Positions 12,888 to 30,100 of a stretch of 64,000 bases of DNA are shown here, piece after piece. The stretch's first letter is position 1, and every line of letters begins with the position of its first letter. The notes under the pieces are model-generated. The model made no database searches and was not told the DNA's origin. It worked only from the letters and a program-made list of their open reading frames with translations. The DNA lies in the IMG/VR virus record IMGVR_UViG_3300043548_000091, positions 1 to 64,000 of that record; one strand, 5' to 3'. Both the position numbers and the translations under genes were made by a program. This stretch comes from a virus.

Positions 12888-15233
12888 ATGCCGCTTCAGA
12901 AAATTCTGTTCAAACCCGGCGTTAACCGCGAGAACACCCGCTACACCACGGAAGGCGGCTGGTACTCGTGTGACAAGGTGCGCTTTCGTCAAGGCACGCC
13001 TGAAAAGCTCGGCGGGTGGGAGCAGATTTCGCCGTACACCTACGAGGGCGTGTGTCGTTCGTTGTGGACTTGGGGCACGATCACCGTCCCGACGGTGCTC
13101 ACTGGAGTTGGCACCAACAAGAAGTTCTACATCGAAGAAGGTGGCGGATACAACGACATCACGCCGATCCGCGAGTATGCGGGACCTTTGAGCAATCCAT
13201 TCGTTGCCACAACGGGTTCAACCACCATTACTGTGACGGACACCGCGCATGGCTGCTCGACTGGCGACTACGTGTCTTTTATTGGTGCGCAAGCGCTGAG
13301 CACGCAGACCTTCACTCGGTCAACAGCCACTGACTTCATTCTTTCTAGCGCGCTGGCTAACAACACGCCCGTCCTTCTCTCGGTTTCCGCTGGTGGGTCT
13401 TTGCCGACCGGCTTGCTCACGGGGGTGGTCTATTACATCCGCGTGGTAGCTGGCACCACGGTGAACTTTGCCAACGTGGTGGACGGCGCGGCGATCAGCA
13501 CGTCCTCGGCAGGCTCGGGGACCTTCTCGCTGGAGGTGGACCAAGGCATCACCTCGGCGGTGCTCAACTCAAACTTCGCGGTCACGGTTGTCAACACCAA
13601 TAGCTACACGATCACGGCTTCGGTGGCAGCTACGGCCTACGATGTGGGTGGGGGTGGCACGGCAGTGCGCGCTGCCTACGAGGTGCCGGTGGGCAACGAG
13701 ACTGTTACGCCGCTCAGTGGCTGGGGCGCAGGGGCTTGGGGTAGCGGTCCGTGGGGTATTGGCACATCCACGCTGGTGGGCGCACGGCTTTGGTACCAGA
13801 ACAACTTTGGCGAAGACCTGATCTTTGGCTATCGCGGCAGCGCGTTGTATTACTGGAACGCCAAGATTGGTACGACACCTCAAGTGTTTACGGTGACGAT
13901 TGCGTCCCCGGGCGTGGTGACATTCACGAGTTCCGAGTTGGTTGACGGCACTGCTGTGGTGTTGGAGACGACGGGCGCACTGCCTACGGGCCTCACGGTG
14001 GGCACGGTCTACTACGTGGTCAACGCGGTCAGCAACGTGTGCAACTTGGCGGCAACGCCCGGCGGCGCGGCCATCACTACGACGGGTGCTCAGTCTGGCA
14101 CGCACTATGTTTCGCCGCGCGGCATCCCGGTGGCAAGTTTGGCTGGGGCGTCGGACGTGCCGGTGGTGGTCAACAACATGACGGTGTCCGACGTGAGCCG
14201 GTTCGTGTTCGCGTTTGGCTGCAACCCGCTGGGCGAGACCGAGCTTGACCCCATGCTGATCCGCTGGAGTGATCAGGAATCGGTGGTGAACTGGACCCCG
14301 GCGGCGACCAACCAAGCAGGCGGCACGCGCCTGTCCCACGGCTCCGAGATTCGCTCCCACGTGCAGACCCGACAGGAGATCGTGGTGTTCACGGACGCCT
14401 CGGTGTATTCGTTGCAGTACCTCGGGCCGCCGTTTGTCTGGGGCGCTCAACTTCTGGGCGACAACACCTCGATCGCAGGTATCAACACGGTGTCGGTGGC
14501 CTCGGGCGTCGTGTTCTGGATGGGCGTGGACAAGTTCTACCGCTACGACGGTCGGGTGCAGACGCTGCGTTGTGACTTGCGCCAGTACATCTACGGCGAC
14601 ATCAACCTTGCTCAGCAGGACCAGTTCTTCTCGGGTACCGACGAGGGCTTCAACGAGGTGTGGTGGTTCTACTGCTCGGCCAACTCCACCGTGATTGACC
14701 GCTACGTCATCTACAACTATGCCGAGGACATCTGGTACTACGGCACGATGGGGCGCACGGCGTGGATTGACTCGGGGCTGAACCTGTACCCGTTGGCTGC
14801 GACGTACTCCAACAACTTGGTGTTCCACGAACTGGGTGTTGACGACAACGTCTCGGGCACTCCGGCGGCCATCGACTCGTACATCACGTCTTCGGAGTTT
14901 GACATTCAGGATGGCCAGAACTTCGGTTTCATCTGGCGCTTGATCCCCGACATCACGTTCCGTGGCTCCACGGCGGCCAGCCCGCAAGTGACGATGACGC
15001 TGCTGCCGATGCAGAACTCCGGCTCGGGCTACAACACGCCCCCGTCCGTGGGGGGCCAAGACAGCGCGCCTGTGGTGCGTGGCGCTACAGTACCAATCGA
15101 GCAGTTCACCGGGCAGGTGTACATCCGTGTTCGCGGACGGCAGATGTCGTTCAAGGTGGCGGGCAATCAGGTGGGCCTTCAGTGGCAGCTTGGCGCGCCG
15201 CGTATCGACATCAAGCCCGACGGCAGAAGGTAA
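12888..15233 (+). CDS. tail nozzle/hub-like protein
   Basis: 781 residues after AAAGGGG. Begins MPLQKILFKPGVNRENTRYTTEGGWYSCDKVRFRQGTPEKLGGW, a hallmark of large beta-propeller tail proteins that sit where P22 gp10 or T7 gp12 would. The core includes GARLWYQNNFGEDLIFGYRGSALYYW, DASVYSLQYLGPPFVWG and DKFYRYDGRVQTL (propeller-like strands). Two inserted beta modules near residues 165-220 and 355-405 each carry a LPTGL-x2-G-x-VYY segment. Role inferred from size and style. Confidence 0.65.
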   Translation: MPLQKILFKPGVNRENTRYTTEGGWYSCDKVRFRQGTPEKLGGWEQISPYTYEGVCRSLWTWGTITVPTVLTGVGTNKKFYIEEGGGYNDITPIREYAGPLSNPFVATTGSTTITVTDTAHGCSTGDYVSFIGAQALSTQTFTRSTATDFILSSALANNTPVLLSVSAGGSLPTGLLTGVVYYIRVVAGTTVNFANVVDGAAISTSSAGSGTFSLEVDQGITSAVLNSNFAVTVVNTNSYTITASVAATAYDVGGGGTAVRAAYEVPVGNETVTPLSGWGAGAWGSGPWGIGTSTLVGARLWYQNNFGEDLIFGYRGSALYYWNAKIGTTPQVFTVTIASPGVVTFTSSELVDGTAVVLETTGALPTGLTVGTVYYVVNAVSNVCNLAATPGGAAITTTGAQSGTHYVSPRGIPVASLAGASDVPVVVNNMTVSDVSRFVFAFGCNPLGETELDPMLIRWSDQESVVNWTPAATNQAGGTRLSHGSEIRSHVQTRQEIVVFTDASVYSLQYLGPPFVWGAQLLGDNTSIAGINTVSVASGVVFWMGVDKFYRYDGRVQTLRCDLRQYIYGDINLAQQDQFFSGTDEGFNEVWWFYCSANSTVIDRYVIYNYAEDIWYYGTMGRTAWIDSGLNLYPLAATYSNNLVFHELGVDDNVSGTPAAIDSYITSSEFDIQDGQNFGFIWRLIPDITFRGSTAASPQVTMTLLPMQNSGSGYNTPPSVGGQDSAPVVRGATVPIEQFTGQVYIRVRGRQMSFKVAGNQVGLQWQLGAPRIDIKPDGRR

Positions 15234-15237
15234 GCGC

Positions 15238-16626
15238 ATGACGTTTATTGTCACGACGGACTACACGCTTGACAGAGTTGCTGCGCCCAACTTGCCGGTG
15301 GCCCCGCCGCTGTGGAACCCGCAGTATCAGGACCAGTACAGCAACGTCCTGCGCCTGTACTTCAACCGGCTGGACACCATTCTGGGACGACTCATGGCGA
15401 ACATCGACACCCTACCCGTATCCATCGGGGGCACAAACGTAGACGCTTTTGGGCGGCTGCGGGTCAGCCAGCCCTACACCCTGTTTGACAGTCAGAACCG
15501 CTACGCTGCGGACAACCAATTTGATGTAGCGACGACCGGGACGGGCACCACGACCTTTCTGTCTAACGAAGCTGCGGTCAAGATGGAAGTCACTGCGGGC
15601 GGCGTGGGGTCGGTTACCCGGCAGTCCTACCGCTCCTTTCCCTATCAACCGGGCAAGGGCCTACTGGTGCTGATGACGTTTGTGATGGACAGCAGCCAGA
15701 GCCTGAACCTCACCCAGCGAGCGGGCTACTACAACGACAACAACGGCGTGTTCTTCCAGCGGGTGGATGGAACTTACTCATTTGTGCTTCGGTCCAGTTC
15801 GACGCCTACCCCCGGCACACCCAGCGATGTGCGGACGGTCAACCAATCAAGCTGGAACGGCGACAAACTGGATGGCACCGGGGCGTCTGGGCTGACTCTT
15901 GACCCGTCCAAGGCGCAGATTTTGTGGATGGACTTTGAATGGTTGGGCGTGGGCTCCGTGCGCTGCGGCTTCATCATCAACGGCGAGTACATCGTCTGCC
16001 ACACCTTTGAGAACGCCAACGATATTACTAGTGTCTACATGACCACGGCTATCCTGCCCGTGCGTTACGAAATTAGTACTGCTACTTCGGCAGTGGCTGC
16101 TTCTATGAAGGCCATCTGCTGCTCGGTGGTCTCCGAGGGCGGCTTTGAACAAACGTCCATCGACCATGTGGCGCGGCGCACCACGATCCTGACCACCATC
16201 GGGACGACGTTCCTGCCCGTGGTCTCGATCCGGCTGGCGTCCGGGCGGACGGGCGCTGTGGTCCTGCCCAACCGGGTTCAGGTGCTGCCGACGACCAGCC
16301 AGAACTATGAGGTGGCGCTGGTCAAGAACCCCACCCTGACGGCAGCCACTTGGGCGGCTACGGTGCCTTCGGATTCCAATGTGGACTATGACGTTGCAGC
16401 CACCGCCATGACGGGGGGAACGATTGTCCAGACTGACTACGTCACGGCTTCCGGATCAGGCGGCGTCCAAGACACCAGCGCCTCCACTGGATACAACTGG
16501 GACCTTCAGTTGGGGGCTTCAATTGCCGGGACGAGCGATATCTACACGGTTGCCGTCCGAACGGTTTCTGGGGCCACCACCGGGGATGTGGTGGGCTCTC
16601 TGTCCTTTTACGACCTGACTCAGTAA
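15238..16626 (+). CDS. fibre/adhesin-like virion protein
   Basis: 462 residues from ATG 15238; the frame is open further upstream only because it overlaps the nozzle gene. An N-terminal anchor (VAPPLWNPQYQDQYSNVLRLYFNRLDTIL) is followed by DAFGRLRVSQPYTLFDSQ and QSYRSFPYQPGKGL, then GVGSVRCGFIINGEYIVCHTFENAN. These phrases recur in virion proteins of environmental podoviruses. Mostly beta; likely attached to the nozzle. Confidence 0.65.
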   Translation: MTFIVTTDYTLDRVAAPNLPVAPPLWNPQYQDQYSNVLRLYFNRLDTILGRLMANIDTLPVSIGGTNVDAFGRLRVSQPYTLFDSQNRYAADNQFDVATTGTGTTTFLSNEAAVKMEVTAGGVGSVTRQSYRSFPYQPGKGLLVLMTFVMDSSQSLNLTQRAGYYNDNNGVFFQRVDGTYSFVLRSSSTPTPGTPSDVRTVNQSSWNGDKLDGTGASGLTLDPSKAQILWMDFEWLGVGSVRCGFIINGEYIVCHTFENANDITSVYMTTAILPVRYEISTATSAVAASMKAICCSVVSEGGFEQTSIDHVARRTTILTTIGTTFLPVVSIRLASGRTGAVVLPNRVQVLPTTSQNYEVALVKNPTLTAATWAATVPSDSNVDYDVAATAMTGGTIVQTDYVTASGSGGVQDTSASTGYNWDLQLGASIAGTSDIYTVAVRTVSGATTGDVVGSLSFYDLTQ

Positions 16627-16683: not shown

Positions 16684-18066
16684 ATGAGCCTGAAACTTGC
16701 CGCCCAGCACCTTGCAAGCAAGGGTCGGGGCCCTGACACCACCCTCGTTCACATGGCCCCGCAAGAAGTTGCAGGGCTTCAAGCACTGGCGCGTGCACAC
16801 GGCGGCACGCTGACCACCAACCCTGACACTGGCCTGCCTGAAGCGGGCTTTCTTAAAGCCATTCTTCCAATCGTTGCTGGTGCAGCGCTCGGCCCTGCCG
16901 GTCTTGGTTTGACTGCAATGCAAGCAGGTCTTGCAGCAGGCGCGCTGGGTACTGTTGCAACGGGCAGTTTGAAGCAGGGCCTGATGGCGGGTCTGGGCGC
17001 ATACGGTGGCGCAGGCTTGATGGGTTCGGTGATGGGCACTGGTAACGCGGCAGCAAGTGGAATGGCCGCAGGAGAAGCGGCGGGTGCAGGCGCGGCTGAA
17101 GCCGCAGCACAAATGACTCCCACTATGGGTGGCGTTGCCCCGCAAGGTATTGGTATGCCGATGTCTGCGGAAGCAGAGTTTGCTGGCACACTTTCTCCGG
17201 AAACGCAAAGTTTACTGAACCGGTACCCAGCACCAATTGCCCCTGCCGCACCTGCTGCATCGGTGACTGACCCAGTCACTCGGATGAACATGCAAGTTGC
17301 ACCGGGAGCGCCTACGGTTATGAACAGCCCCGCATACGACCCGTCGATGGGCGTGCGCACAGTGCCCTATGAGCAGATGAAAGCTGCGGGATTGGGCGAT
17401 GAGGCCATTCGACAAAGCGCTACCGAGTACGGTGCCAACATGAAAGGCTTTGCGCAGAATCCGTTCTCACAGGCCACCCAGCAGGCAATGGCAAGTCCTG
17501 TCAGCACGGGCATCAAAGCAATTGCCGACAAACCCGAGTTGTTGTTCAACAAAGAGAACCTCAAGTACGGTGCCGCTGCACTTGCGCCCGTCATGTTCCA
17601 AGAGCCGGAGAAGCGCGCTGGGTATACGGGTGGCGGACCCAACCCCTACGCGTACGAATACGATCCGGGCCGTCAGGCATACACGCCTTCGGCGGGTTCT
17701 TCGGAGCAAGCATATTTCAGGCCGCGCTACAACATGATGGCGGATGGCGGCCTTGCCGCGCTGTCTGGCGGTGGTGCCTCGCACCTTGGCGATTACTCCG
17801 ATGGTGGCCGACTGCTGCGCGGTCCCGGTGATGGCGTGAGCGATGACATCCCTGCCACGATTGCAGACAAGCGCCCGGCGCGCTTGGCCGATGGTGAGTT
17901 TGTGGTGCCCGCAAGAATTGTTTCCGAGTTGGGCAACGGCTCGACTGATGCCGGTGCACGCAAGCTCTACGCAATGATGGACCGCGTGCAGAAGAATCGC
18001 AGCAAGACTGTAGGCAAGAACAAGGTGGCGGTGGATAGCCGCTCTGAGAAGCTGCTGCCCGCATGA
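16684..18066 (+). CDS. probable ejection (internal virion) protein
   Basis: 460 residues starting MSLKLAAQHLASKGRGPDTTLVHMAPQEVAGLQALA. A long Gly/Ala-rich hydrophobic stretch at 55-145 (AGAALGPAGLGLTAMQAGLAAGALG) is followed by a Pro-rich linker. The conserved end is YSDGGRLLRGPGDGVSDDIPATI, then ADGEFVVPARIVSELG. First gene after the candidate promoter, and the first of three such proteins before the giant protein. Membrane-active segments plus position fit a protein injected with DNA. Confidence 0.6.
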   Translation: MSLKLAAQHLASKGRGPDTTLVHMAPQEVAGLQALARAHGGTLTTNPDTGLPEAGFLKAILPIVAGAALGPAGLGLTAMQAGLAAGALGTVATGSLKQGLMAGLGAYGGAGLMGSVMGTGNAAASGMAAGEAAGAGAAEAAAQMTPTMGGVAPQGIGMPMSAEAEFAGTLSPETQSLLNRYPAPIAPAAPAASVTDPVTRMNMQVAPGAPTVMNSPAYDPSMGVRTVPYEQMKAAGLGDEAIRQSATEYGANMKGFAQNPFSQATQQAMASPVSTGIKAIADKPELLFNKENLKYGAAALAPVMFQEPEKRAGYTGGGPNPYAYEYDPGRQAYTPSAGSSEQAYFRPRYNMMADGGLAALSGGGASHLGDYSDGGRLLRGPGDGVSDDIPATIADKRPARLADGEFVVPARIVSELGNGSTDAGARKLYAMMDRVQKNRSKTVGKNKVAVDSRSEKLLPA

Positions 18067-18527
18067 CGGTCCAGTACGCCATCGAAGACCCCGCGACCTT
18101 TATCGAGGAATTCAAAGTGCTCGCGCCCGCTCACTACGAAGAGTTGTGCGTGACCAAGGACTTCCCGATGGACCCGGACCTTGAGGCGTATGGCAGGCTG
18201 CATGTGGCAGGCATGCTCAAGTGTGTGACGGCGCGCGACGATGAGGAACTGGTGGGTTACGCCATCTTCATTGTTCAGCCCCATCTGCACTACAGGTCTT
18301 GCAAGACGGCATTTGAGGATTTGTATTTCCTCAAGAAGACACATCGACTGGGCCGCACGGGCATCCGGCTGTTCCAGTTCGCAGAAGAAGCGCTTCGCGC
18401 AGAAGGGGTGCACCGCATCATCTTCCACACGAAGGTGCATTTGGACAACTCGCGGCTGTTTGAGTACTTGGGCTACAAGCACACGGACAAGCTGTACACG
18501 AAAATTTTGAGTACGGAGTCAGTATGA
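18063..18527 (+). CDS. GNAT-family N-acetyltransferase
   Basis: 154 residues, start coupled to the previous stop (ATGA). The fold order is visible: EELVGYAIFIVQPHLHYRSCKTAFEDLYFLKKTHRLGRTGIRLFQFAEEALRAEG carries the acceptor strand, the R/Q-x2-G-x-G/A-like acetyl-CoA loop (HRLGRTGIRL) and the following helix, then VHLDNSRLFEYLGYKH. Placed among ejection proteins it could acetylate a virion or host protein early, or simply be a passenger. Substrate unknown. Confidence 0.78.
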   Translation: MTVQYAIEDPATFIEEFKVLAPAHYEELCVTKDFPMDPDLEAYGRLHVAGMLKCVTARDDEELVGYAIFIVQPHLHYRSCKTAFEDLYFLKKTHRLGRTGIRLFQFAEEALRAEGVHRIIFHTKVHLDNSRLFEYLGYKHTDKLYTKILSTESV

Positions 18528-19462
18528 GCTACTCACGGAAACAGCTTGAAGCGTTTGGCGAACCTCTTGGCGAGTGCGTCACGCGTAAGCGTGAGGATGG
18601 CCGTTACATCTGCGGTGGTGGCGGTAGCAGCGCGCCGCCCGAGAAAACCACGCAGGTCACGGACCTGCCGGACTGGGCCAAGCCGTCAGCGCAAAAACTG
18701 CTGGGCAAGGCCGAGGCACTCACGGACATCAACGCCAATCCGTACCAGCAGTACCGGGGCGAGCGCATCGCAGGCTTTACCCCGCTGCAACAGCAAGCGT
18801 TCACGGGTGTTTCGCAGATGGACGCGGGCCCGGAAGGTTTTGCCCGGCAGGTGGGCGGCTACATGTCGCCGTTCATGCAGAACGTGGTGGACCGCGAAAA
18901 GCTCGAAGCCGCCCGTGCTTCTCAAATGCTGGGTCAGCAGCAGCAGGCGCAGGCTACTCAGGCAGGTGCGTTTGGTGGCTATCGTGAAGGCATTCAACGT
19001 GCCGAGCGCGAGCGCGGGCTTCGCAGCCAACTGCAAGACATCCAGTCTAGGGGTCTGCAAGCCGCATACGACCGCGCAGCGGACCAGTTCCGTACCGGCA
19101 TCACGCAGGGTCTGGCCGTGGGCCAGCAGCAAGCCGCGCTGGGCAGTCAGCAACAGCAGCTTGAGCAAGGTCGCCTGAGCCAGCAGTATCAGGACTTCCA
19201 GAACCAGCAGCGCTTCCCGTACCAGCAGTTGGAGTTCATGTCCAACATCCTGCGCGGCACCCCCATGGGCTCGGTGCAGAGCCTGTATAACCCGACGCCC
19301 ACTTTCGGTTCGCAACTGATTGGCGCGGGCACTGCTGCGCTGGGTGCGTCTCGTCTGCTCGGGGCCAAGGAAGGCGGCATTATGGACGCAGAGGTCAAAC
19401 CTGCGAAGAAGAAAAAAGGCAAGCCTGCGGGCCTTGCCGAACTGGCCATGACCAAGATTTGA
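18524..19462 (+). CDS. Gln-rich internal virion protein
   Basis: 312 residues, start overlapping the acetyltransferase stop. LPDWAKPSAQKLLGKAEALTD, then YQQYRGERIAGFTPLQQQAF, and a long Gln/Ala helix region around 120-240 (GQQQQAQATQAGAFGGYREGIQ). Ends with a Lys-rich tail (KPAKKKKGKPAGL). This recurring phage protein is usually next to ejection proteins, and the helical Gln-rich body fits a core or channel component. Role inferred. Confidence 0.6.
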   Translation: MSYSRKQLEAFGEPLGECVTRKREDGRYICGGGGSSAPPEKTTQVTDLPDWAKPSAQKLLGKAEALTDINANPYQQYRGERIAGFTPLQQQAFTGVSQMDAGPEGFARQVGGYMSPFMQNVVDREKLEAARASQMLGQQQQAQATQAGAFGGYREGIQRAERERGLRSQLQDIQSRGLQAAYDRAADQFRTGITQGLAVGQQQAALGSQQQQLEQGRLSQQYQDFQNQQRFPYQQLEFMSNILRGTPMGSVQSLYNPTPTFGSQLIGAGTAALGASRLLGAKEGGIMDAEVKPAKKKKGKPAGLAELAMTKI

Positions 19463-19472
19463 GGGCCGCGCC

Positions 19473-21143
19473 ATGATGAACATCGAGCAGATCACCGCCC
19501 GGCTGGCCAAGCTGCCGGACCAAGCCTTGCAGCAGTATGCTGCGATGCACAAGAACGACCCCTACATCATTGCGCTGGCGGTCTCCGAGTCCAACCGTCG
19601 CAAGCAGATGCGCCAAGCCGCGCAGGGTGCGCAAGGCGAGATGGAGCAGCCCACGGTCGTGGACCAAGACATTGCCGAGATGGCTCCGGCCCCTGTTGCG
19701 CCGCAGCAAATGATGCCCGAGGACACTGGGATTGCGCAGCTTCCCGTGGGCGAGATGGAGTTTGCCGGTGGCGGCATCGTGGCGTTCGCTGACGGCGGCG
19801 ACGTGGAGCGGTATCAAAGCTCGGGGCTGGTGCAGCCGCAGCAACGCCCCGGGGAGAGCTTTGAAGACTTCCGTCGTCGGGCTTTTCAAGAGTCGTTGCT
19901 TGCAGAGCAGGCACGGCGACAGCGAGAGTACGAAGCCGCAGAAGCTGCGCGTCAGCGCGTGTTGGCGGAGCGAGGCGGTTCGGCTATTCCGCCCAGCCCC
20001 TATGGCATTCAGCGCGGGCCGTTGGTTCCTTCGGGAGTTACACCCGTGCCCGTGGCAACGCCCGCAGCCGCAACGTCAACTGCGCCTCAACCGGTGCGCA
20101 CGCCTGACCCGATGACGGCAGCGCAACCCACGACTAGCACCTACACCCGCACTGGCGGTGACCCGGGCCCCGGGCGCAGGCCGGAAGCTCCCACGACTGC
20201 GCGCGCCGAAGTTGACGCTGCGGGCACCACCCCTGCACGCACTGGGGTTCCCGGCATGGACGTTGGCCGAATGGTTCGCGATGCGTTGACCGCCGCAGGT
20301 CAAGAGAAAAACCCGTTTGCCACTGACCTGAAAGAAATTGGCGAGGCCAAAGTTCGCGCCAAGGAGGAAGAGGTCAAAGGGCTGGAGGCAATTCAGAAAC
20401 AGTTTGCCGACATCTACAAGGGCCGCAAGGAGCGCCTTGACACTCGCGAAGGCGAGCTTGGCAAGATGAAGGACCAGCAACAAGGGCTGGCGTTGCTGCA
20501 AGCGGGCGCGGCGATGATGACCACCACCGGTGGTATCGGCAAAGCGCTGGGCAAAGGCGTGCAGGTGGGCTCCGAGCAGTACGCTGCTGGGCTGGAGAAG
20601 CTGCAAGCGGCCAAGGACAAGATTGTCGAAGCGCGCGATCGGCTGGAGGAAATTGAAGCCCAGCGCAACGAGTTGTCTGCCCGCGAATTGAACCGCGCCC
20701 GTAACGAGGTCAAACAGACCGGCATTTCTGCCCGAGAAGACTTGGTCAAGTCGAACATGCAGATGTACGGCGTCAACCGCGAGACCGCCATGAAAATGGT
20801 GGACATGCAGGTCCGTGTCGGCACGACGCAAATGGAGATCGCCAGCCGTGAGCGCGTGGCTGCCACGTCGGCTGCTGCGGCAGCCCGTAACCCACAGCTT
20901 GAAGTGCTGCGCGCAATCACCAGCGATCCGAAACTACTGCAAACCTACCAAGCCATGCACGGCTCCAAGTCGAGCATCATGGATGAGTACACTAAATTTC
21001 TTAAAGAGAACCCGACGCTTATGGGCGACGAGCAAAAGGCGCTGGCAGCGTTCTTGCGGGCAAAAGGTGTGTTGGGCGGTATGGGTGCGAGTGCACCCGC
21101 TGCTGGGCAAGGTGGCGGAACCGTGTTGCCTCGTAAGGATTAA
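19473..21143 (+). CDS. internal virion / ejection protein with coiled coils
   Basis: 556 residues from ATG 19473 (a second ATG follows). MNIEQITARLAKLPDQALQQYAAMHKNDPYI is a well-conserved start. A Pro/Thr-rich linker (about 180-260) leads to long charged coiled coils (KVRAKEEEVKGLEAIQKQFADIYKGRKERLD) around a Gly/Ala segment (GLALLQAGAAMMTTTGGIGKALG) reminiscent of ejection-protein membrane segments. Ends just before a promoter- and hairpin-containing gap. Confidence 0.6.
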   Translation: MMNIEQITARLAKLPDQALQQYAAMHKNDPYIIALAVSESNRRKQMRQAAQGAQGEMEQPTVVDQDIAEMAPAPVAPQQMMPEDTGIAQLPVGEMEFAGGGIVAFADGGDVERYQSSGLVQPQQRPGESFEDFRRRAFQESLLAEQARRQREYEAAEAARQRVLAERGGSAIPPSPYGIQRGPLVPSGVTPVPVATPAAATSTAPQPVRTPDPMTAAQPTTSTYTRTGGDPGPGRRPEAPTTARAEVDAAGTTPARTGVPGMDVGRMVRDALTAAGQEKNPFATDLKEIGEAKVRAKEEEVKGLEAIQKQFADIYKGRKERLDTREGELGKMKDQQQGLALLQAGAAMMTTTGGIGKALGKGVQVGSEQYAAGLEKLQAAKDKIVEARDRLEEIEAQRNELSARELNRARNEVKQTGISAREDLVKSNMQMYGVNRETAMKMVDMQVRVGTTQMEIASRERVAATSAAAAARNPQLEVLRAITSDPKLLQTYQAMHGSKSSIMDEYTKFLKENPTLMGDEQKALAAFLRAKGVLGGMGASAPAAGQGGGTVLPRKD

Positions 21144-21217: not shown

Positions 21218-24200
21218 ATGGCACAGTACATCACGCTCCCCAACGGTAGTTTGTTTGAAATCCGGAAAGGCGAGTCGCGAGAAACTGCCCTTGCCAAAGC
21301 GATCGAGCAGTACCCTGAAGCGTTTGGATTCGGCCCGCAAAAAGCTGCGGAGCAGCCGCAGTCTGGCTTCACCCCCGCGCTCAAGTCTGGCTACTCCGAA
21401 CTGAAGTCGGGCATCGCCGCCCTTGCCGGACGTACCGGCATCATGGACCAAGAAGCGGCGGAGAAGTACATCAAAGAGCAGGAGGCGTACCAGCAGCGCA
21501 CCTTCAAGCCCACCGCCACCTTTGGTGAAGCGCCTGTCACCAAGACTCTGGAACTGCTGGGCGGTTCGTTGCCGTATATGGCAGCGCCGGTGGTTGCTGG
21601 CGGCGCTGTGGCGCTGACGCCTTTGACGGGTACTGCCGCCACCATTGCTGGACTTGGCGCAGCAGGCGCGGCGTCTGCCGGACAGTTCACGGGCTCCAAC
21701 CTGCGCAGGCAGATGGAGGAAGGCAAGGCCCTTGGGGAAACTGAACTGGGCGCTGCTGCTGCCGCCGCGCTTCCGCAGGCCGCGCTGGACATGGTCAGCT
21801 TCCGCATGATCCCCGGCATCCGCCAGCTTTTCACCACGGCAGGCAAAGAGATCGCCCCGGCAGCCGCCAAGCGCATCGCCGAGCAAGGCGTCAAGGATAT
21901 TGCCAAGGACTACACGCTTGCCACCGGCAAGGCCATGACCGCCGAAGGTCTGACCGAAGCTGGCCAACAAGTTCTGGAGCGGATGCAGGCAGGCTTGAGC
22001 CTGACCGATGAAAAGGCCCGTTCCGAGTACATCGACAGCCTGATTGGTGGCGCGGTGCTGGGTGGCGTGTTGTCGCCCGCTGGCCGCTATGTGGAGCGTC
22101 GAGGCGAAGCAGCCAAGCAAGAAGCCGAGCGCCTGCAAAAGGCGCAGGAAGTGCGCGCTCAGGAAGAGGCACGTCGTGCTTCTCCGGAAGGGCAGGCCGC
22201 GTTTGTCCAAGACTACGACGCCCGATCTGCGCGGCTGACCGAACTCAAGGCGGTGCCCAAGCCCGGCAAAGACGCCACTCCTTTAGAGCGCGCCGAATAC
22301 GCGGAAGTCAAAAAGGAGCGCGCCAAACTTGAGGCCCAGTTGACCCGAGACGCCTCCGCGTACAAGACGGCCAAAGCTGCTGTGCAGCAGGCCATGCGCA
22401 CCGATCCGGAGGCAGCAGCCAAGCTGGCGGAAATCGAGGGTACGGCCACCGCCGACGCCCAGACCCAGCCCTATTTTGTTGAGCCCCAAGGCACGCTGCC
22501 CGGCATGGAGGCTGTGCCCTCGGCGGCTGCGCCCGCCGCCGAGGCGGAGTTTGTGGACTACGCGTCCCAGATTCGCAACCTCGAAGGCAGGCTGGACGAC
22601 CTGCGCACGCAGGCCCAGAGCACCACATCGCTGGACGAAAAGCTGGCATTGAACCAGCAGTACGAGAAGATTAAAGCCGCGCTGCGTGACGCGGAGTTGG
22701 CCAAGAAGGAACAGGACAAGGCCGCCGCCGGGCCCGAGGGCAAGATTGCTGCACTGCGCAAACGCATGGTCAAGGCGGAGGAAGATGGCGACATCACCGC
22801 ACAGGCGCGCATTGCCACGCAACTCAAGGAACTGGGCGTCACCGACCTGAGCGAAGTCGCCGCGCCGGAGCAGGGCACGATCCCGCTGGCCCCGTTCAAG
22901 ACCAAGGTTGAGGACCGCGCAGCCTACGCCGCCCGGGTGTTCCAGCCCGGCGCAGCCGACATCGAGGCGCAGGAACAAGAAGCGTTGGTGGAGGCCGAAC
23001 GGCAGCGGGAAGAGGCGGTCAAAGAGGCTGAGCGCGAGCGCAAGATTGCTCCCGAAGTTGTTGCACTGCGGCGCATCAAAGAAGCACAACGCCCTGTTTT
23101 TGCTGAAGGTGTGCAGCGTCAAGGCCAAGTCTCTGGCATGGTGGATAAGATTGTCGATGCCGCTTTGCGTACCGACGGTAAGGCCCCCGGACGGGTGATT
23201 TCCGGTGTGGCCCCCACGGATGTCAGCAAGGCCGACGCTCTTCGTGGTCAGCTTGCACTGGCGCGCGCTACGGACAACCGCCCCCGGGCGCAGGAGATCA
23301 TCGAGCAACTCAAGGCCATCGGAGAGTCCGAGGCCGACACGGGTGGTGACATCGAGGCAGGCCAGACGGTCAAAAAAGCCGGGGTTGAGGGCCGTCTGTC
23401 GGCTCAAACCATCATGGACAACCGCGTCACGCGCATGTCCCAGTCCCAAATGGCCGCCTTCAACAAGCTGGCCGACTACGTGCAGACCGTGCGGGAGGGT
23501 GACCAAAACGTCGCCGAGGCCAAGAAGCAGACCCTGCGCGACGCTGCCGAGCGCCTGAAAGACACCATCGTCGGGCTGGCGCTCAACGAGATGGACGCCC
23601 GCCGTGCGCAGGCCGGGCTGCCCGAACTGACCACGGAGAAGAAGCTGCTGGCGGTCAGCCGCCTGAACGGTGTGCTGAACGAAATGATTACTCGCGGAGC
23701 GGGGGTTTTTTCGCCGGAAGAAAAGGCGGCGACGCGCGGCACTTTGGTCCTTGGCAGCGCCGCGCCGCAGGGCGGTCAGAAGTCTGTGCGCGTCAACACG
23801 CCGTTCGACGACAAAGCGGCACAGGCGCAAGCGGCGCTAGAAGCTGCTGAAAAAGATGCAGCACCCAAGCTATCCGCCGCTAGAGCGCGGCGTGAAGAAC
23901 TGCGGGAACAACTGGCGCAGCCCAACGCCGATCAACGCGCTTTGGAACAGGCGTTAACTTACGATCCCGTGCTCAAAGATGCCGATGCCGCAGAACGCGC
24001 TGTGCAGGCGGCCCGACAAGCGCTGGCGGTTGTCAAACAGCAGCAACGCGAGTTCCTGTCTCGTAAGGGCAACCAGCCTGCGGGTGGTCCGGGCATGTTC
24101 AACAACTTCACGGCAGCCGCCAATGCGCTTCGTGCCCAGATGCGCAACGTGATTGACGAGGTCGGCGAGATCAAGGCCCCCGAGCCCCGCAAGGCTCCCC

Positions 24201-27200
24201 CGCTCAAGCCTCGCGTTTCCAACGAACTGCGCATGATGTTTCAAGGGCAGGAGCGCCCGGTCAATGAGCAGTTTGACGCCGCGTTTGACCGCGCCAAGTC
24301 CGATGAAGACTACCGCACGCTCAAAGAAATCCAGCGCGTGTACGGCAAGCTGTCTGATGCTGCCCGCGAAGAAGCTGTGGCGCAGGTGCGCCGCGTCGAG
24401 ACCGGCCAGCCGCTGGAGGTTCGTGGGGCCCTGAAAGACGAGCTTGCCGATCTGGCACGCGCCGGACAAAGCGATCAGGGGCAAGCCGAGATGTTCACGG
24501 GCGAGGACGAGCGCAGCATCTCCCGCGCCACGACTGCCAACTTCATGCGGTTCCTTAACAGCGCGGAAGTCAAGAAGCGCCGAATGCAGATCGACGAGGC
24601 GCGCAAGCAGGCCGAGTTCCAAGCCAAGCGCGCCGCCACGATTCAGAAGAAGATTGACGAGGAAGAGAAGAAGCAGCAGGACATGCTGGACAAGCTGGAG
24701 ATTGCCAAGAACAAGTCTCCGGTTGAAGCCGCGCGTGAGCGCCTTGCGTCCGTCACCGACAAAAACAAAGAGGCCGTTGCGCTGGCCAAACAGATTAATT
24801 CTCAACGCACGGTAATACGCATTCGTATGGCGTCCATGGTGCGCCAGATTTCCGACGCGTTGGATAAAGCCAAGAAGAAAGAAGCCGAGATTGAAGACCT
24901 TGTCGGCTACATCTTTAAGGAAGCCACGCTTGACCCCAATAACGCTGAGTATCAAAAGCGTCTAGGGGAGTTCTTGGATCAGCAGACTGCTGCGGCCAAG
25001 GCGGTTGAGTCTGTGGAGAAGGCGCTGGAGAAGGCCCGGGCCACCCAGACTCGCGTCATTGAGGACCATGCCAAAGACACGATCGACAACGCGCTGATCA
25101 GCGAAGGAGCCAAAGCCCAGCGCAAGATCGACAAGGCGGAGCAGGAACTCAAGGCCGCGCAGGAAGAAGAGGCTGGCGCACAGCGCCGCCTTGATGCTGT
25201 GCGCCAAGACATCAAGCCCCCGCGTCCCCAGACCCCCGCTGAAAAACTTGCCGAGCTGCCTGTCGAAGGCGTCACCCGCGTCTACCGCGACACGTCCGCG
25301 CCCGAGGTGCGGGCTAAGGTTGCTGCACTGCGCAAGACCATTGGCAAAGCCGAAGAGGCGCACGCCAAGGCCATGGAAAGCGGCGACGAAAAGGCGATGG
25401 AAGAGTCTATCAAGGCGATTGAGTCCGCGTACGACAAGATGTACGAGATTCTGGCTAACGCACCGGTCCGCCGCGAAGCGCAAATGTCGGCAGAAGAAGC
25501 CCGGGCATTTGAGGAATACGAAGCCGCACAGCGCGCGACGGTTGAGAAGACCATCAAACTTTTCCAAGAGAAGGCGGGCATCCCCCCGCTTAAGCTGACT
25601 GAGCGCCGAACTGTGGCGTCGGTCAAGAACGTCAAGACCGGGCGCGTCGAGACGCAGATCAAGAAGGAGTCGGTCGCGCAGCAGGAGAAGCGCGTCAAGG
25701 AAGAAGCTGTCACCGGCAAGTACCCGGCTCGTGCGCTGGAGGAGTTGGCCAAGGCCCGCGCTGAACTGAAGACGGTGCAGGACCAGATCGCCTATATCGA
25801 CGCCAATCCCGCAGCGCCGCGCAGCGAGGCCAAGGCACGTCAGACCGCAGCCCGCACCGCCGCTGTTGCCAAGCGCAAGGCGCTGGAGGCCAAGGTTGCC
25901 AACCTAACCAAGGCTCAGAAGGAAGTAGTGGCCGAGGCCCGTGTTGAGAAGGAGGCCGAGAAAGCGCTCAAGAAAGAGCGCCGCCGGATGCTGCGCGAGG
26001 ATGAATATGAGTTTTCTCGCGGTGCCGCCACCGAAGGCCAGACGGTTGCGCAACTTGAAAAAGCGCTCGATCGGGCTATTGGCGAGAAAGGGTTGGCTGC
26101 TCGGCGCATCAAGTTGTTTAGCTCAGTTGCTGATTTTTTTGCCTCCAAGGAAGCGTACGACTACGAGGGCGCAGACATTCCGTCCGACGCCAAGGCTTTT
26201 GTCAATCCGAAAAACGGCGACGTGTTTATGTTCGCCAACAACATTGCGGCAGACGAGTCCGTTGGCGTACTGCTACACGAGGTTGGGGTCCACATTGGCT
26301 TCAGAAAACTTTTTAGTGCCGCAAAGTTCAACGCGCTTGTGCAGTCGGTTAAAAACTGGGCTGCGCAAAAAGACGGGTCTTTGGAATCCAAGATTGCGCA
26401 ACGCGCGCTTGCGCGAGTTAAAGCGGCTGAAACTTCTGCGGAGCAATTTGATGAGGAGTTGTTGGCGTACGCGGTAGAAGAAGCCGTGAAAGCTGGTGTC
26501 AGTCCTTCTGCTTTAAAAAATGGCAGCCCTATTCAAAATTGGCTGCAACTTGTACTGGCGGCGTTGCGCAATGCCCTAACTGCGTTCGGCATCAATCCGA
26601 ACAAACTCACGTCTGGCGATCTGGTCAACATGGCCTACGGCGCGGCACAGCTTGAAATTCGTGGCACTTGGCACGGCAGTGACGCTAAATTTACCGCCTT
26701 TGATAGCAAGAAAGCAGGAGCAGGGGAGGGCGCGTTTGATCGGCGTTTTGACGGAACCAATAACTTAGGGCCCGGGCCATACACCACGCCGCAGCAAGAG
26801 TACGCAGAGTACTACCAGTATGCGGTACCGTTTGGTAAAGCTGCAAACGCAACCGGTTACGGTGACCGCAGCTATCAAGACTATCGCGCCTTGGATGAGC
26901 GCTTTATGGGGGCAAACAACGCCGAACTTACGCCTGACGAGCTACAGGCTAAGTTTGAATCGCGTTTGCTGAACGCCTATCTTAGAGGTGTTAATGCGGG
27001 AGAAAGCCTAAACCCCACACAAAACACGTCCGCGCAAAAACTGCTGGAGAAATTGACCGCTTCCGTTCGCACGCCTGCTGAGCAGGCAGCGGTAGCCACG
27101 CTGTCTTTGAATAATTTGCGTGGGCTTTCTGAGCGCCCGCCTATGGGCACCCTGTACCGGGCTTTGGATGACATGCCGCGTTCTCAAATTTACGAAGTAA

Positions 27201-30100
27201 ATGCGATGCACACGGTGGGTGACCGGCCAGAAATTGACGCGTTGCTCAAAAAGTACGGAAACGAATATGACGTAGCGCAGGCAAAGGACGAGGGGCGTTA
27301 CGCAGGCAACAGTTTGTTTTTCAAAATGCGGCGGGAGCTTGGCGTTGATAAAACTTTGCAGCTTCTTAAAAAGGCTGGCATCAACGCAATTGAACAGAAC
27401 GCTGAGCGCAGATATGTGGAGCGAGCTTACATCGGGCAAGCCCCAGAAATTATTCCGTTGACAGAAACGCCTGTTGGCTTGTCCAAAGCCGAAGGTCGTC
27501 CCGGCACCGGAACGTTACTGTTCTCAAAAGCCCGTTACGCCAACCCGGAGATGGAGCGTTTCGGGCAGGACACCGACAGGGTGGTGGCCAAGCAGCGCGG
27601 TACGTGGGAGAAAGTCAAGGCCAACACCACCGGGCTGGCTTTTGCCACGCAGTTGGTGGACCGCTTTGCCGGGTTCGAGCGGCTGGCCAAGTACATGGAC
27701 AGCCTCAAAGGCTCCCAGATGCTGTACTACCTGCGCATGTACGACCAGCGCATGAACTTCGTGTCGCAGGCTGTTGGCAACGGCGCGCCCCAGATCGTGG
27801 AGAAGACCCGCGCTGATGGCCGCAAGGAGTACGTGATCGAAGCCAAGGACGGCGCGAACATCAAGAACGTGGTGCAGATTTTGTCCAAGGCGCAGCCGAT
27901 GGTAGGCAACGCCGAGGCGGTAAACCGCACGTTCACGATGTACCTTGCCGCGCTGCGTGCGCAGCGTGTCGGCTTGGCCGCGCTGAACTTTGGCGGTGAT
28001 GTGACGCAGGACATGCTCGACAACGCGATCAACTTGGTCGAGCGCACGCCGGGCTTGAAAGAAATCTTCGACAACGCCCGCAACGAGTACAACGCCTACA
28101 ACCGCGACCTCATGAAGTTCTTGGCGTCCACGGGCGCGATCTCGGAGGAGTTGGCTAACCGGCTGGCGGCCACCAACGACTACATCCCGTTCTATCGAGA
28201 ACAAAACGGCAACGCCATGCTGATCATTGGCGGCGAGAACCCGATCCGGATTGGCAACATTGCTGATCAGCCGTACCTGCAAGAACTGGTGGGCGGCGAC
28301 ACGGCCATCCTCGACTTCATGACCTCCAGCGTGCAGAACACCAACATGCTGATGGACATGGGCCTGCGCAACCTGTCCACCAAGAACGCCGTGTTCGAGT
28401 TGGTGAACCTGAACGCCGCCAAGATCGTGAAGAAGGCCGACGGCCCGGACGTGGTGCGGTTCAAGGTGGACGGTGAGGACCGCTACGCCGTGCTGGATAC
28501 CGAGACCGTGACGATTGGCGGCGAGCGCTTTAGCACGGGCGTACCCGCTGAACTGCTGGTCAAGGGCATGGAGGGCATTCCCACCCAGATGCCTGCCTTG
28601 ATGCGCCTGATGGCTGTGCCCGCGCAGTTGCTGCGCAAGGCCGTGACGCTGTCGCCCATGTACATGGCCAAGCAGTTGTTCCGTGACTCGTTGGCGGCAC
28701 CGATTGTGTCGGGCGCGAACTTCACCCCGGTGTTTGGTGCCATCCGCCAGATCAACGGCGCGGCGGGCAAGACGCTGGAGGAGCGCGGCATCACGGGCGG
28801 TCAGTACATGTCCGGCACCAGCGAAGACATCACCAAGATTCTGCGCGACATCGCCACCGGCAAGCCCGGCTTCATGACGGCCATCGGCAAGCTGGAGGCG
28901 CTGGGGATGAAGGCGGACTCGCTGACCCGCCGCGCCCAGTACAACAGCTACATTGCGCAGGGCATGTCCGAGATGGAGGCCACGCTGATGGCGCTGGAGT
29001 CCATGAACTTCAACAAGCGCGGGGCGTCGCCCAGCGTGCACATGGCCAACTCGCTGATCCCGTTCTTCAACGCCCAGATTCAGGGCTTGAATGTGCTGTA
29101 CAAGGCGTTCACGGGCCAGATGCCGTTCAACGACAAGCTGAAAGTCCAGCAGAAGCTGTTGATGCGCGGGGCCATGATCGCGGCGGTCTCCCTGATCTAC
29201 GCCGCCATGATGGAGGACGACGAGGCGTACAAGAACGCCACGCCCGATCAGAAGTATGGCAACTGGTTTGTGCGCATCCCCGGCTTTGACGAGCCTGTGC
29301 GTCTGCCTGTGCCATTTGAAATCGGCTACATCTTCAAGGGCATCCCCGAGGCGCTGTACAACACGATGACCACGGAGAACGGCGGCGAGGAAGCGGTCAA
29401 GGCATTCCGCCAGATTCTGCTCCAGACCATCCCCGGCGGCTCCAGCTACGGCATCCCGCAGGCGCTCAAGCCTGCCATCGAGGCGGGGCTGGGCAAGTCG
29501 TTCTACACCGGACGGGACATCCTGTCGGCCCGCGAGAAGGAGTTGCTGCCAGAGGAGCAGTTCCGTGCCAACACGGCGGAGGTTTCCAAGGCGCTGGGCA
29601 AAGAGCTTGGCTTCTCCCCGATCATCTTCGAGAGCTTGGTGCGGGGCTACACCGGCACGCTGGGTCTGGCCTTCCTGCACACGCTCAGTCTGGGTGCACC
29701 GAAGTCCGAGTCGCCGGAGGCTGCCGTCAAGCGCCTGTCGGATTACCCCCTCGTGGGCGGTTCCTTCCAGCCCAACGACGCAGGCGGCATCTCCAACGCT
29801 GTCTACGAGCGGTTCAACGAGGACATCAAGGTGCGCAACAGCTTCCAGAAAATGCTGGGCGAAGGGCGCACGGCGGAAGCCAACGAACTGCTACAGCGTC
29901 GGGGCAACGAGATCATGGAGGCCGAGATCGGCGACGTGTTCAAGACGAACATGACCAAGCTGACCCAAGCCGAGCGTGCGATCGCCGCCTCGAACCTGTC
30001 GCCGGAAGAAAAGCGTGCCAAGCTGGATGAAATCCGCCGGATCAAGACGGGTCTTGCCCAGACCTTGCGCGAGGCGGCAGATAGAACCAGACCCCAGTGA
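21218..30100 (+). CDS. giant polyvalent virion protein with ART and LPD38-like domains
   Basis: 2,960 residues, the largest gene. Order: N-terminal domain (1-100); Gly/Ala hydrophobic segment (about 108-165); long charged coiled coils (270-1600); a segment with LLHEVGVHIGF (H1687, E1688, H1692), metallopeptidase-like but with HExxxH spacing; an ART-PolyVal-like ADP-ribosyltransferase (about 1817-2075) opening with W1818-H-G and including PYTTPQQEYAEYYQY; a helical part; and an LPD38-like region (about 2460-2700: LLRKAVTLSPMYMAKQLFRDS, FFNAQIQGLNVLYKAFTG). Such polyvalent proteins are thought to be packaged and injected to act on host targets. The C-terminus overlaps a gene on the other strand by 59 bases. 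Confidence 0.8.
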   Translation: MAQYITLPNGSLFEIRKGESRETALAKAIEQYPEAFGFGPQKAAEQPQSGFTPALKSGYSELKSGIAALAGRTGIMDQEAAEKYIKEQEAYQQRTFKPTATFGEAPVTKTLELLGGSLPYMAAPVVAGGAVALTPLTGTAATIAGLGAAGAASAGQFTGSNLRRQMEEGKALGETELGAAAAAALPQAALDMVSFRMIPGIRQLFTTAGKEIAPAAAKRIAEQGVKDIAKDYTLATGKAMTAEGLTEAGQQVLERMQAGLSLTDEKARSEYIDSLIGGAVLGGVLSPAGRYVERRGEAAKQEAERLQKAQEVRAQEEARRASPEGQAAFVQDYDARSARLTELKAVPKPGKDATPLERAEYAEVKKERAKLEAQLTRDASAYKTAKAAVQQAMRTDPEAAAKLAEIEGTATADAQTQPYFVEPQGTLPGMEAVPSAAAPAAEAEFVDYASQIRNLEGRLDDLRTQAQSTTSLDEKLALNQQYEKIKAALRDAELAKKEQDKAAAGPEGKIAALRKRMVKAEEDGDITAQARIATQLKELGVTDLSEVAAPEQGTIPLAPFKTKVEDRAAYAARVFQPGAADIEAQEQEALVEAERQREEAVKEAERERKIAPEVVALRRIKEAQRPVFAEGVQRQGQVSGMVDKIVDAALRTDGKAPGRVISGVAPTDVSKADALRGQLALARATDNRPRAQEIIEQLKAIGESEADTGGDIEAGQTVKKAGVEGRLSAQTIMDNRVTRMSQSQMAAFNKLADYVQTVREGDQNVAEAKKQTLRDAAERLKDTIVGLALNEMDARRAQAGLPELTTEKKLLAVSRLNGVLNEMITRGAGVFSPEEKAATRGTLVLGSAAPQGGQKSVRVNTPFDDKAAQAQAALEAAEKDAAPKLSAARARREELREQLAQPNADQRALEQALTYDPVLKDADAAERAVQAARQALAVVKQQQREFLSRKGNQPAGGPGMFNNFTAAANALRAQMRNVIDEVGEIKAPEPRKAPPLKPRVSNELRMMFQGQERPVNEQFDAAFDRAKSDEDYRTLKEIQRVYGKLSDAAREEAVAQVRRVETGQPLEVRGALKDELADLARAGQSDQGQAEMFTGEDERSISRATTANFMRFLNSAEVKKRRMQIDEARKQAEFQAKRAATIQKKIDEEEKKQQDMLDKLEIAKNKSPVEAARERLASVTDKNKEAVALAKQINSQRTVIRIRMASMVRQISDALDKAKKKEAEIEDLVGYIFKEATLDPNNAEYQKRLGEFLDQQTAAAKAVESVEKALEKARATQTRVIEDHAKDTIDNALISEGAKAQRKIDKAEQELKAAQEEEAGAQRRLDAVRQDIKPPRPQTPAEKLAELPVEGVTRVYRDTSAPEVRAKVAALRKTIGKAEEAHAKAMESGDEKAMEESIKAIESAYDKMYEILANAPVRREAQMSAEEARAFEEYEAAQRATVEKTIKLFQEKAGIPPLKLTERRTVASVKNVKTGRVETQIKKESVAQQEKRVKEEAVTGKYPARALEELAKARAELKTVQDQIAYIDANPAAPRSEAKARQTAARTAAVAKRKALEAKVANLTKAQKEVVAEARVEKEAEKALKKERRRMLREDEYEFSRGAATEGQTVAQLEKALDRAIGEKGLAARRIKLFSSVADFFASKEAYDYEGADIPSDAKAFVNPKNGDVFMFANNIAADESVGVLLHEVGVHIGFRKLFSAAKFNALVQSVKNWAAQKDGSLESKIAQRALARVKAAETSAEQFDEELLAYAVEEAVKAGVSPSALKNGSPIQNWLQLVLAALRNALTAFGINPNKLTSGDLVNMAYGAAQLEIRGTWHGSDAKFTAFDSKKAGAGEGAFDRRFDGTNNLGPGPYTTPQQEYAEYYQYAVPFGKAANATGYGDRSYQDYRALDERFMGANNAELTPDELQAKFESRLLNAYLRGVNAGESLNPTQNTSAQKLLEKLTASVRTPAEQAAVATLSLNNLRGLSERPPMGTLYRALDDMPRSQIYEVNAMHTVGDRPEIDALLKKYGNEYDVAQAKDEGRYAGNSLFFKMRRELGVDKTLQLLKKAGINAIEQNAERRYVERAYIGQAPEIIPLTETPVGLSKAEGRPGTGTLLFSKARYANPEMERFGQDTDRVVAKQRGTWEKVKANTTGLAFATQLVDRFAGFERLAKYMDSLKGSQMLYYLRMYDQRMNFVSQAVGNGAPQIVEKTRADGRKEYVIEAKDGANIKNVVQILSKAQPMVGNAEAVNRTFTMYLAALRAQRVGLAALNFGGDVTQDMLDNAINLVERTPGLKEIFDNARNEYNAYNRDLMKFLASTGAISEELANRLAATNDYIPFYREQNGNAMLIIGGENPIRIGNIADQPYLQELVGGDTAILDFMTSSVQNTNMLMDMGLRNLSTKNAVFELVNLNAAKIVKKADGPDVVRFKVDGEDRYAVLDTETVTIGGERFSTGVPAELLVKGMEGIPTQMPALMRLMAVPAQLLRKAVTLSPMYMAKQLFRDSLAAPIVSGANFTPVFGAIRQINGAAGKTLEERGITGGQYMSGTSEDITKILRDIATGKPGFMTAIGKLEALGMKADSLTRRAQYNSYIAQGMSEMEATLMALESMNFNKRGASPSVHMANSLIPFFNAQIQGLNVLYKAFTGQMPFNDKLKVQQKLLMRGAMIAAVSLIYAAMMEDDEAYKNATPDQKYGNWFVRIPGFDEPVRLPVPFEIGYIFKGIPEALYNTMTTENGGEEAVKAFRQILLQTIPGGSSYGIPQALKPAIEAGLGKSFYTGRDILSAREKELLPEEQFRANTAEVSKALGKELGFSPIIFESLVRGYTGTLGLAFLHTLSLGAPKSESPEAAVKRLSDYPLVGGSFQPNDAGGISNAVYERFNEDIKVRNSFQKMLGEGRTAEANELLQRRGNEIMEAEIGDVFKTNMTKLTQAERAIAASNLSPEEKRAKLDEIRRIKTGLAQTLREAADRTRPQ

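Follow-up and report, generated by a model that had tools for sequence, protein, structure and literature searches.

A divergent ADP-ribosyltransferase domain, likely of the ART-PolyVal kind, exchanged as a cassette within a giant polyvalent phage protein

Genome setting of the polyvalent protein gene

The window analysed here comprises 64,000 nucleotides and lies entirely within the virus record IMGVR_UViG_3300043548_000091, which is 65,619 bases (65.6 kb) long. The final gene of its plus-strand late operon is an uninterrupted open reading frame encoding a protein of 2,960 aa (Table 1), full-length relatives of which range from 2,700 to 3,430 aa in IMG/VR. On the same strand the gene is preceded by endolysin, virion structural and ejection-protein genes, while the terminase and portal genes are located at 56.7-60.7 kb. 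As is typical of polyvalent proteins, several unrelated effector domains are combined in one polypeptide, namely an ADP-ribosyltransferase (ART) and an LPD38 domain besides a peptidase-like domain recognised by motif only, and the gene is positioned among late virion genes.

Table 1. Features of the polyvalent protein gene and its surroundings in the window.
Feature	Position	Strand	Evidence
DNA ejection protein match, 312-aa gene upstream of the polyvalent protein gene	18524..19462	+	phrog_4287, E 2.4e-12
Polyvalent protein gene, 2,960 aa	21218..30100	+	uninterrupted ORF; LPD38 and PHROG C-terminal matches; full-length IMG/VR relatives
Putative zincin-like metallopeptidase domain, HEXXXH variant	26018..26650	+	motif only
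Divergent ART-PolyVal-type ADP-ribosyltransferase domain, window-type (H-Y-E), residues 1816-2090	26663..27487	+	PF18760 placement; A1-A6 alignments; hhalign; AF2/BFVD
His1819 (W-H-G, strand 1)	26672..26674	+	invariant, 45 aligned relatives
Tyr1855 (G-x-G-P-Y, strand 2)	26780..26782	+	invariant, 45 aligned relatives
Glu2068 (Y-V-E-R-A-Y-I, last core strand), candidate third catalytic residue	27419..27421	+	invariant, all window-type members
C-terminal virion-type module, residues 2262-2960, with LPD38 at 2668-2846	28001..30097	+	Pfam, PHROG, BLASTP

The region immediately upstream of the ART domain is probably a zincin-like peptidase of the HEXXXH form, a variant which has been described for the peptidases of polyvalent proteins (PMC5512222). 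Within and beyond its H1687-E-V-G-V-H1692 motif the residues H1687, E1688 and H1692 as well as E1747, E1754 and E1755 are invariant among 23 family members. Since no Pfam or other library model matches this region, the peptidase assignment is made at the level of the motif.

Near the N-terminus of the polyvalent protein, residues ~115-160 (encoded within 21218-22400, +) form a hydrophobic Ala/Gly-rich stretch that could be membrane- or channel-related. The N-terminal part around these residues is well conserved, with up to 47% identity among relatives.

A GNAT acetyltransferase gene (18063-18527, +; Pfam Acetyltransf_1, E 3e-7) immediately precedes the ejection-type genes. An acetyltransferase is also encoded at the equivalent position in Burkholderia phage JC1, and a GNAT gene adjoins a head-closure or stabilization gene in several Vibrio and other phages. 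The encoded protein is possibly a conserved virion-modifying enzyme. The 556-aa late protein encoded at 19473-21143 (+), for which neither a Pfam nor a PHROG match was obtained, corresponds in its position to the virion-associated gp68 of JC1.

Identification and family placement of the likely ART domain

An earlier note, made from the sequence alone, had proposed an ART domain at 26660-27430 on account of its W-H-G start and the segment PYTTPQQEYAEYYQY. Both are located as proposed, with W-H-G at residues 1818-1820 (window 26669-26677) and PYTTPQQEYAEYYQY at residues 1854-1868 (from window 26777), and the proposed borders are nearly exact when compared with the domain in Table 1, the last core strand of which (YVERAYI) extends over 27413-27433.

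The Pfam family PF18760 (ART-PolyVal), when searched across the whole record, found a single place, 26669-26818 (+), with a weak score (E 0.041, 10.2 bits) below the curated cut-off of 31.2 bits, and Pfam scans of the protein, the segment or the domain alone did not report ART-PolyVal. As the score lies below the cut-off, the domain was placed in the family by transitivity, as a divergent relative.

This placement relies on a sister set of proteins that share the flank GDLVNxAYG...GTWHG with the window type in the same slot and continue in an ART-PolyVal-like manner (GTWHGTGxxFxxFDxxYMGSGEGAQxFGWGTYRA ... NYVDFxDK). The slot domain was the sole place found by PF18760 in six of the seven genomes tried (E 1e-4 to 0.08); the seventh, L013, carries the window type and gave no match. 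Further relatives exceed the PF18760 cut-off (L206 with 54.8 bits and L166 with 32.3 bits), and in the superset A6 of 45 sequences PF18760 was the commonest Pfam match (20 members; next family, four).

An hhalign comparison of the window-type with the sister-type profile gave an E value of 8e-32 over the full length, the strongest common stretch being the N-terminal flank that ends in GTWHG. When the WHG flank was removed the match had an E value of 6e-9, compared with 0.07 for a reversed profile and 0.03 for the best of 30 column shuffles. The C-terminal half alone did not match the sister set significantly (E 0.01).

No ART was found when the domain or its profile was searched directly against Pfam and the PDB sequences, and a tblastn search of the domain against 50,697 phage records returned no match. 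With A6 the top PDB-sequence match was a heme oxygenase (E 0.002); it falls mostly within a helical insert and was regarded as a chance match. The same applies to AraA_central at domain residues 180-246 (E 0.003, below the cut-off), since it was obtained for a single member only. A scan of bacterial genomes yielded one locus, which was spurious (a short ORF matching over 31 residues only).

The region 26660-27430 is thus likely to encode a divergent member of the ART-PolyVal kind of ADP-ribosyltransferase domains. The type suggested by the earlier note is supported by same-slot relatives above the cut-off and by the profile match, as well as by the structural model and the invariant residues His1819 and Tyr1855 described below.

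Predicted structure

AlphaFold2 (AF2) with the A6 alignment produced a confident model (pLDDT 88, pTM 0.77) with strands at WHG, PYTT, GTLYRAL, NAIEQN and YVERAY in the expected strand order. An initial model built from close relatives alone was of low confidence (pLDDT 65) and gave no match in a fold search. A Foldseek search against BFVD revealed 13 matches at E <= 1e-3, the best at probability 1.00. The matches at ranks 2 and 3 are named ART-PolyVal-like and one other is a large polyvalent protein; TM-scores to the viral matches were moderate (0.36-0.43 over the query).

In the PDB no ART structure was matched by the model at any useful score. The structure prediction called for by the earlier note gave a confident model with ART-PolyVal-named matches in BFVD, but with no ART in the PDB. 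A large helical insert that splits the small ART core may explain the missing PDB match, which nevertheless counts as evidence not in favour of the ART identity.

Predicted active-site residues

His on strand 1 and Tyr on strand 2 (predicted strands E2-6 and E40-42) are both present in the window domain, and it is these residues that are conserved and not those of an R-S-E active site of the T4 Alt type. In canonical ART-PolyVal domains His and Tyr are accompanied by an Asp in strand 5 (H-Y-D; PMC5512222). This strand reads N-[YIL]-V-x-F-x-D in the fetched relatives, whereas the window subfamily reads Y-[VIT]-E-R-A-[YF]-I. The subfamily has also lost the FLDxxSR motif before strand 5 and contains 8 extra residues between GEG and GPY. 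Due to the replacement of the strand-5 motif we consider the domain a variant related to ART-PolyVal rather than a canonical member. Of the key NAD-binding residues, on which the earlier note had made its claim depend, only a part is thus retained: His and Tyr are invariant, whereas the subfamily lacks the canonical Asp of strand 5 and has an invariant Glu close to its place.

In the hhalign register Glu2068 aligns with the x of N-Y-V-x-F, which is Asp in the sister set. In a motif-based alternative register it is opposite the N, the position at which PARP enzymes have their catalytic Glu. Judging from the aligned sequences, the triad is likely to be H-Y-E instead of the published H-Y-D, whichever register applies.

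Conservation and exchange of ART forms

The window-type domain was found at 20 IMG/VR loci (some of them duplicates) with identities of 47-61%, and H1819, Y1855, E2059 and E2068 are invariant among them. In the superset A6, His and Gly of WHG, both Phe of FxxF, GEG, Gly and Tyr of GxGxY and a further Tyr 11 residues beyond GxGxY are invariant in all 45 sequences. The dN/dS ratios of ~0.09-0.23, obtained for pairs with unsaturated synonymous change, show that the domain is kept under strong purifying selection.

At two loci, L006 (IMGVR_UViG_3300008266_000920) and L009 (IMGVR_UViG_3300008339_000954), the ART-bearing frame is shorter (~1,700 aa). In L006 a stop codon was detected upstream, inside a region that is continuous in L005. 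The shorter frames may reflect a split gene, a frameshift or an assembly error.

The 190 residues upstream of the ART, the ART itself and ~420 residues downstream of it were compared among 47 distinct proteins. L022 and L043, which carry different ART forms in the same slot, share 77% identity upstream and 71% downstream, but only 30% in the ART; similarly, L013 and L036 are 88% identical downstream and differ in their ART form. Mapped onto the downstream-module tree, the ART form has to change 8 times, with 7 of the changes forced by well-supported branches, and the upstream tree requires 4 changes, 2 of which are forced. As both trees were built quickly and include some long branches, the counts are approximate. 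The protein of the window itself groups with window-type proteins in its upstream part and with sister-type proteins (L078, L080) in its downstream part. This split grouping and the changes on the trees indicate that the ART moves as a cassette together with part of the upstream flank. The two ART forms have thus changed places at least 7 times on the downstream-module tree, and the ART is a swappable cassette.

Tentatively, and with some doubt on our part, these observations could be extended to a distinct H-Y-E class of virion-delivered ARTs which has repeatedly traded places with the H-Y-D class in a fixed slot of the polyvalent protein, the effector being swapped and the delivery protein kept. 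If so, a swap of the effector would presumably also swap the host target, comparable to polymorphic toxins exchanging their tips. Of most interest here are the likely switch to another catalytic acid and the fact that two ART forms replace each other in a single slot. Near-identical downstream modules with either ART form imply natural phage pairs that differ mainly in the injected effector, and such pairs make the targets of the effectors, and their role in early success against host defences, directly testable.

The C-terminal module and probable packaging into the virion

The C-terminal module contains an LPD38 domain (Pfam, E 4e-30) and matches phrog_9854 (E 2e-31), and the latter is also matched by gp69 of JC1. 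According to a BLASTP comparison the C-termini of both proteins share 22% identity (E 2e-7). Mass spectrometry of CsCl-purified virions identified JC1 gp69 by 51 unique peptides, and its LPD38 domain covers residues 4195-4401 of 4,515 aa (PMC9144972). Each of the two is the giant last protein of its virion module, their C-terminal modules are homologous, and LPD38 stops 114 residues short of the C-terminus in both. JC1 gp69 is a DarB-like protein with lytic transglycosylase, methylase and helicase parts and without a reported ART, and in this as well as in its length it differs from the window protein. Apart from JC1, no LPD38 protein was found by that name in the searched literature on virions.

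The gene order is also similar in JC1 and the window (acetyltransferase, a protein of 312-332 aa, a protein of 510-556 aa, giant protein). However, this similarity is only suggestive, since the small upstream proteins have no detectable similarity to JC1 gp63, gp64 and gp68. The polyvalent ejection-type protein described in the earlier note agrees with the position of the gene at the end of the late operon and with the homology of its LPD38 module to the virion-associated gp69. Based on this homology, the gene order and the neighbouring ejection-protein match, it is plausible and reasonable to assume, by analogy, that the 2,960-aa protein is packaged and ejected.

Proposed function and alternative explanations

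We consider it probable that the polyvalent ejection protein, with a divergent ART of the ART-PolyVal kind inside it, is packaged, ejected and ADP-ribosylates a host macromolecule. The 2,960-aa protein would be synthesised late in infection, together with the capsid proteins, and its C-terminal module with LPD38 would bring it into the virion. At infection it would be ejected with or ahead of the DNA, and the HEXXXH peptidase-like domain may release the ART by cutting, as in the published model of polyvalent proteins. His1819 and Tyr1855 would then hold NAD+, with Glu2068, in view of its conservation, as the likely catalytic acid, and the ART would modify a host macromolecule by ADP-ribosylation ahead of any phage gene expression. 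Its target may differ between phages, since cassette exchange replaces one ART form by another that is sharply different. To name RNA polymerase as the target would be speculation by analogy with T4 Alt.

That the domain is not an ART at all, but an unrelated virion domain following a common W-H-G flank, seems very improbable. The weak direct Pfam score, the missing PDB match and the concentration of the strongest similarity in the N-terminal flank would fit such a domain, but they are opposed by the collinear match past the flank, by the GxGxY motif (strand 2, Tyr) invariant in 45 sequences and by the structural matches to ART-PolyVal proteins. An ART fold that is catalytically dead or altered, and serves as a module binding NAD+ or ADP-ribose or as a structural spacer, would account for the loss of the strand-5 Asp motif, as both N-Y-V-x-F-x-D and FLDxxSR are missing throughout the subfamily. 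We nevertheless regard it as rather unlikely, because no window-type member deviates at His, Tyr or the alternative acid Glu2068, and because strong purifying selection acts on the domain; moreover, this form and the canonical form replace one another in the same slot, which suggests a comparable function.

Given an active enzyme, host proteins need not be its substrate. The ART superfamily includes NADases as well as DNA-modifying enzymes such as DarT (PMC9503650), and the domain might consume NAD+ as an NADase or modify nucleic acid, RNA or a small molecule. This appears unlikely considering that the Tox-ART-HYD2 or polyvalent clade has been placed with protein-modifying ARTs (PMC5512222). 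The location of the gene in the late operon, and thus its presumably late expression, would be compatible with an ART whose action falls late in infection, within the producing cell or against components of the virion (e.g. in superinfection control), and not on entry. We regard such a late role as quite unlikely, since the C-terminal module is shared with the virion-packaged JC1 gp69, and in its architecture the protein corresponds to the polyvalent proteins, for which injection has been proposed (PMC5512222). An ART delivered on entry remains the preferred explanation.

Comparison with known systems

Among described domains, the window domain most resembles ART-PolyVal (PF18760; Tox-ART-HYD2 clade, Iyer et al. 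2017, PMC5512222) in the order of its motifs (WHG, FxxFD, GEG, GxGxY, followed by the GxLxR and GI strands), in the kind of polyvalent host protein, in the transitive profile match and in the structural match to named members. It deviates in its score below the Pfam cut-off, the longer spacing between GEG and GPY, the loss of FLDxxSR and the replacement of N-Y-V-x-F-x-D by Y-V-E-R-A-Y-I. In the literature searched no assay of any polyvalent-protein ART was found, and such ARTs are predicted ones.

If our interpretation is right, the domain would work like T4 Alt, a virion-packaged ART injected with the DNA. However, T4 Alt belongs to the R-S-E clade outside the polyvalent proteins (PMC5512222), whereas the window domain is of the H-Y type and part of a polyvalent protein. 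An ART and a metallopeptidase are also combined in one giant virion protein in the N4-like virion RNA polymerases with ART (Roseovarius Plymouth podovirus 1; PMC5512222). Unlike these, the 2,960-aa protein gave no Pfam or PHROG match to an RNA-polymerase domain.

A further phage compared is Phage DSL-LC04 (OR003939.1). Its set of virion genes includes, close to the equivalent end, a gene for a 'DNA transfer protein' of ~1,068 aa instead of one for a giant polyvalent protein. The virion protein encoded at 15079-16626 (+) in the window shares ~66% identity with its counterpart in DSL-LC04, which is a lake phage with Gammaproteobacteria given as its host.
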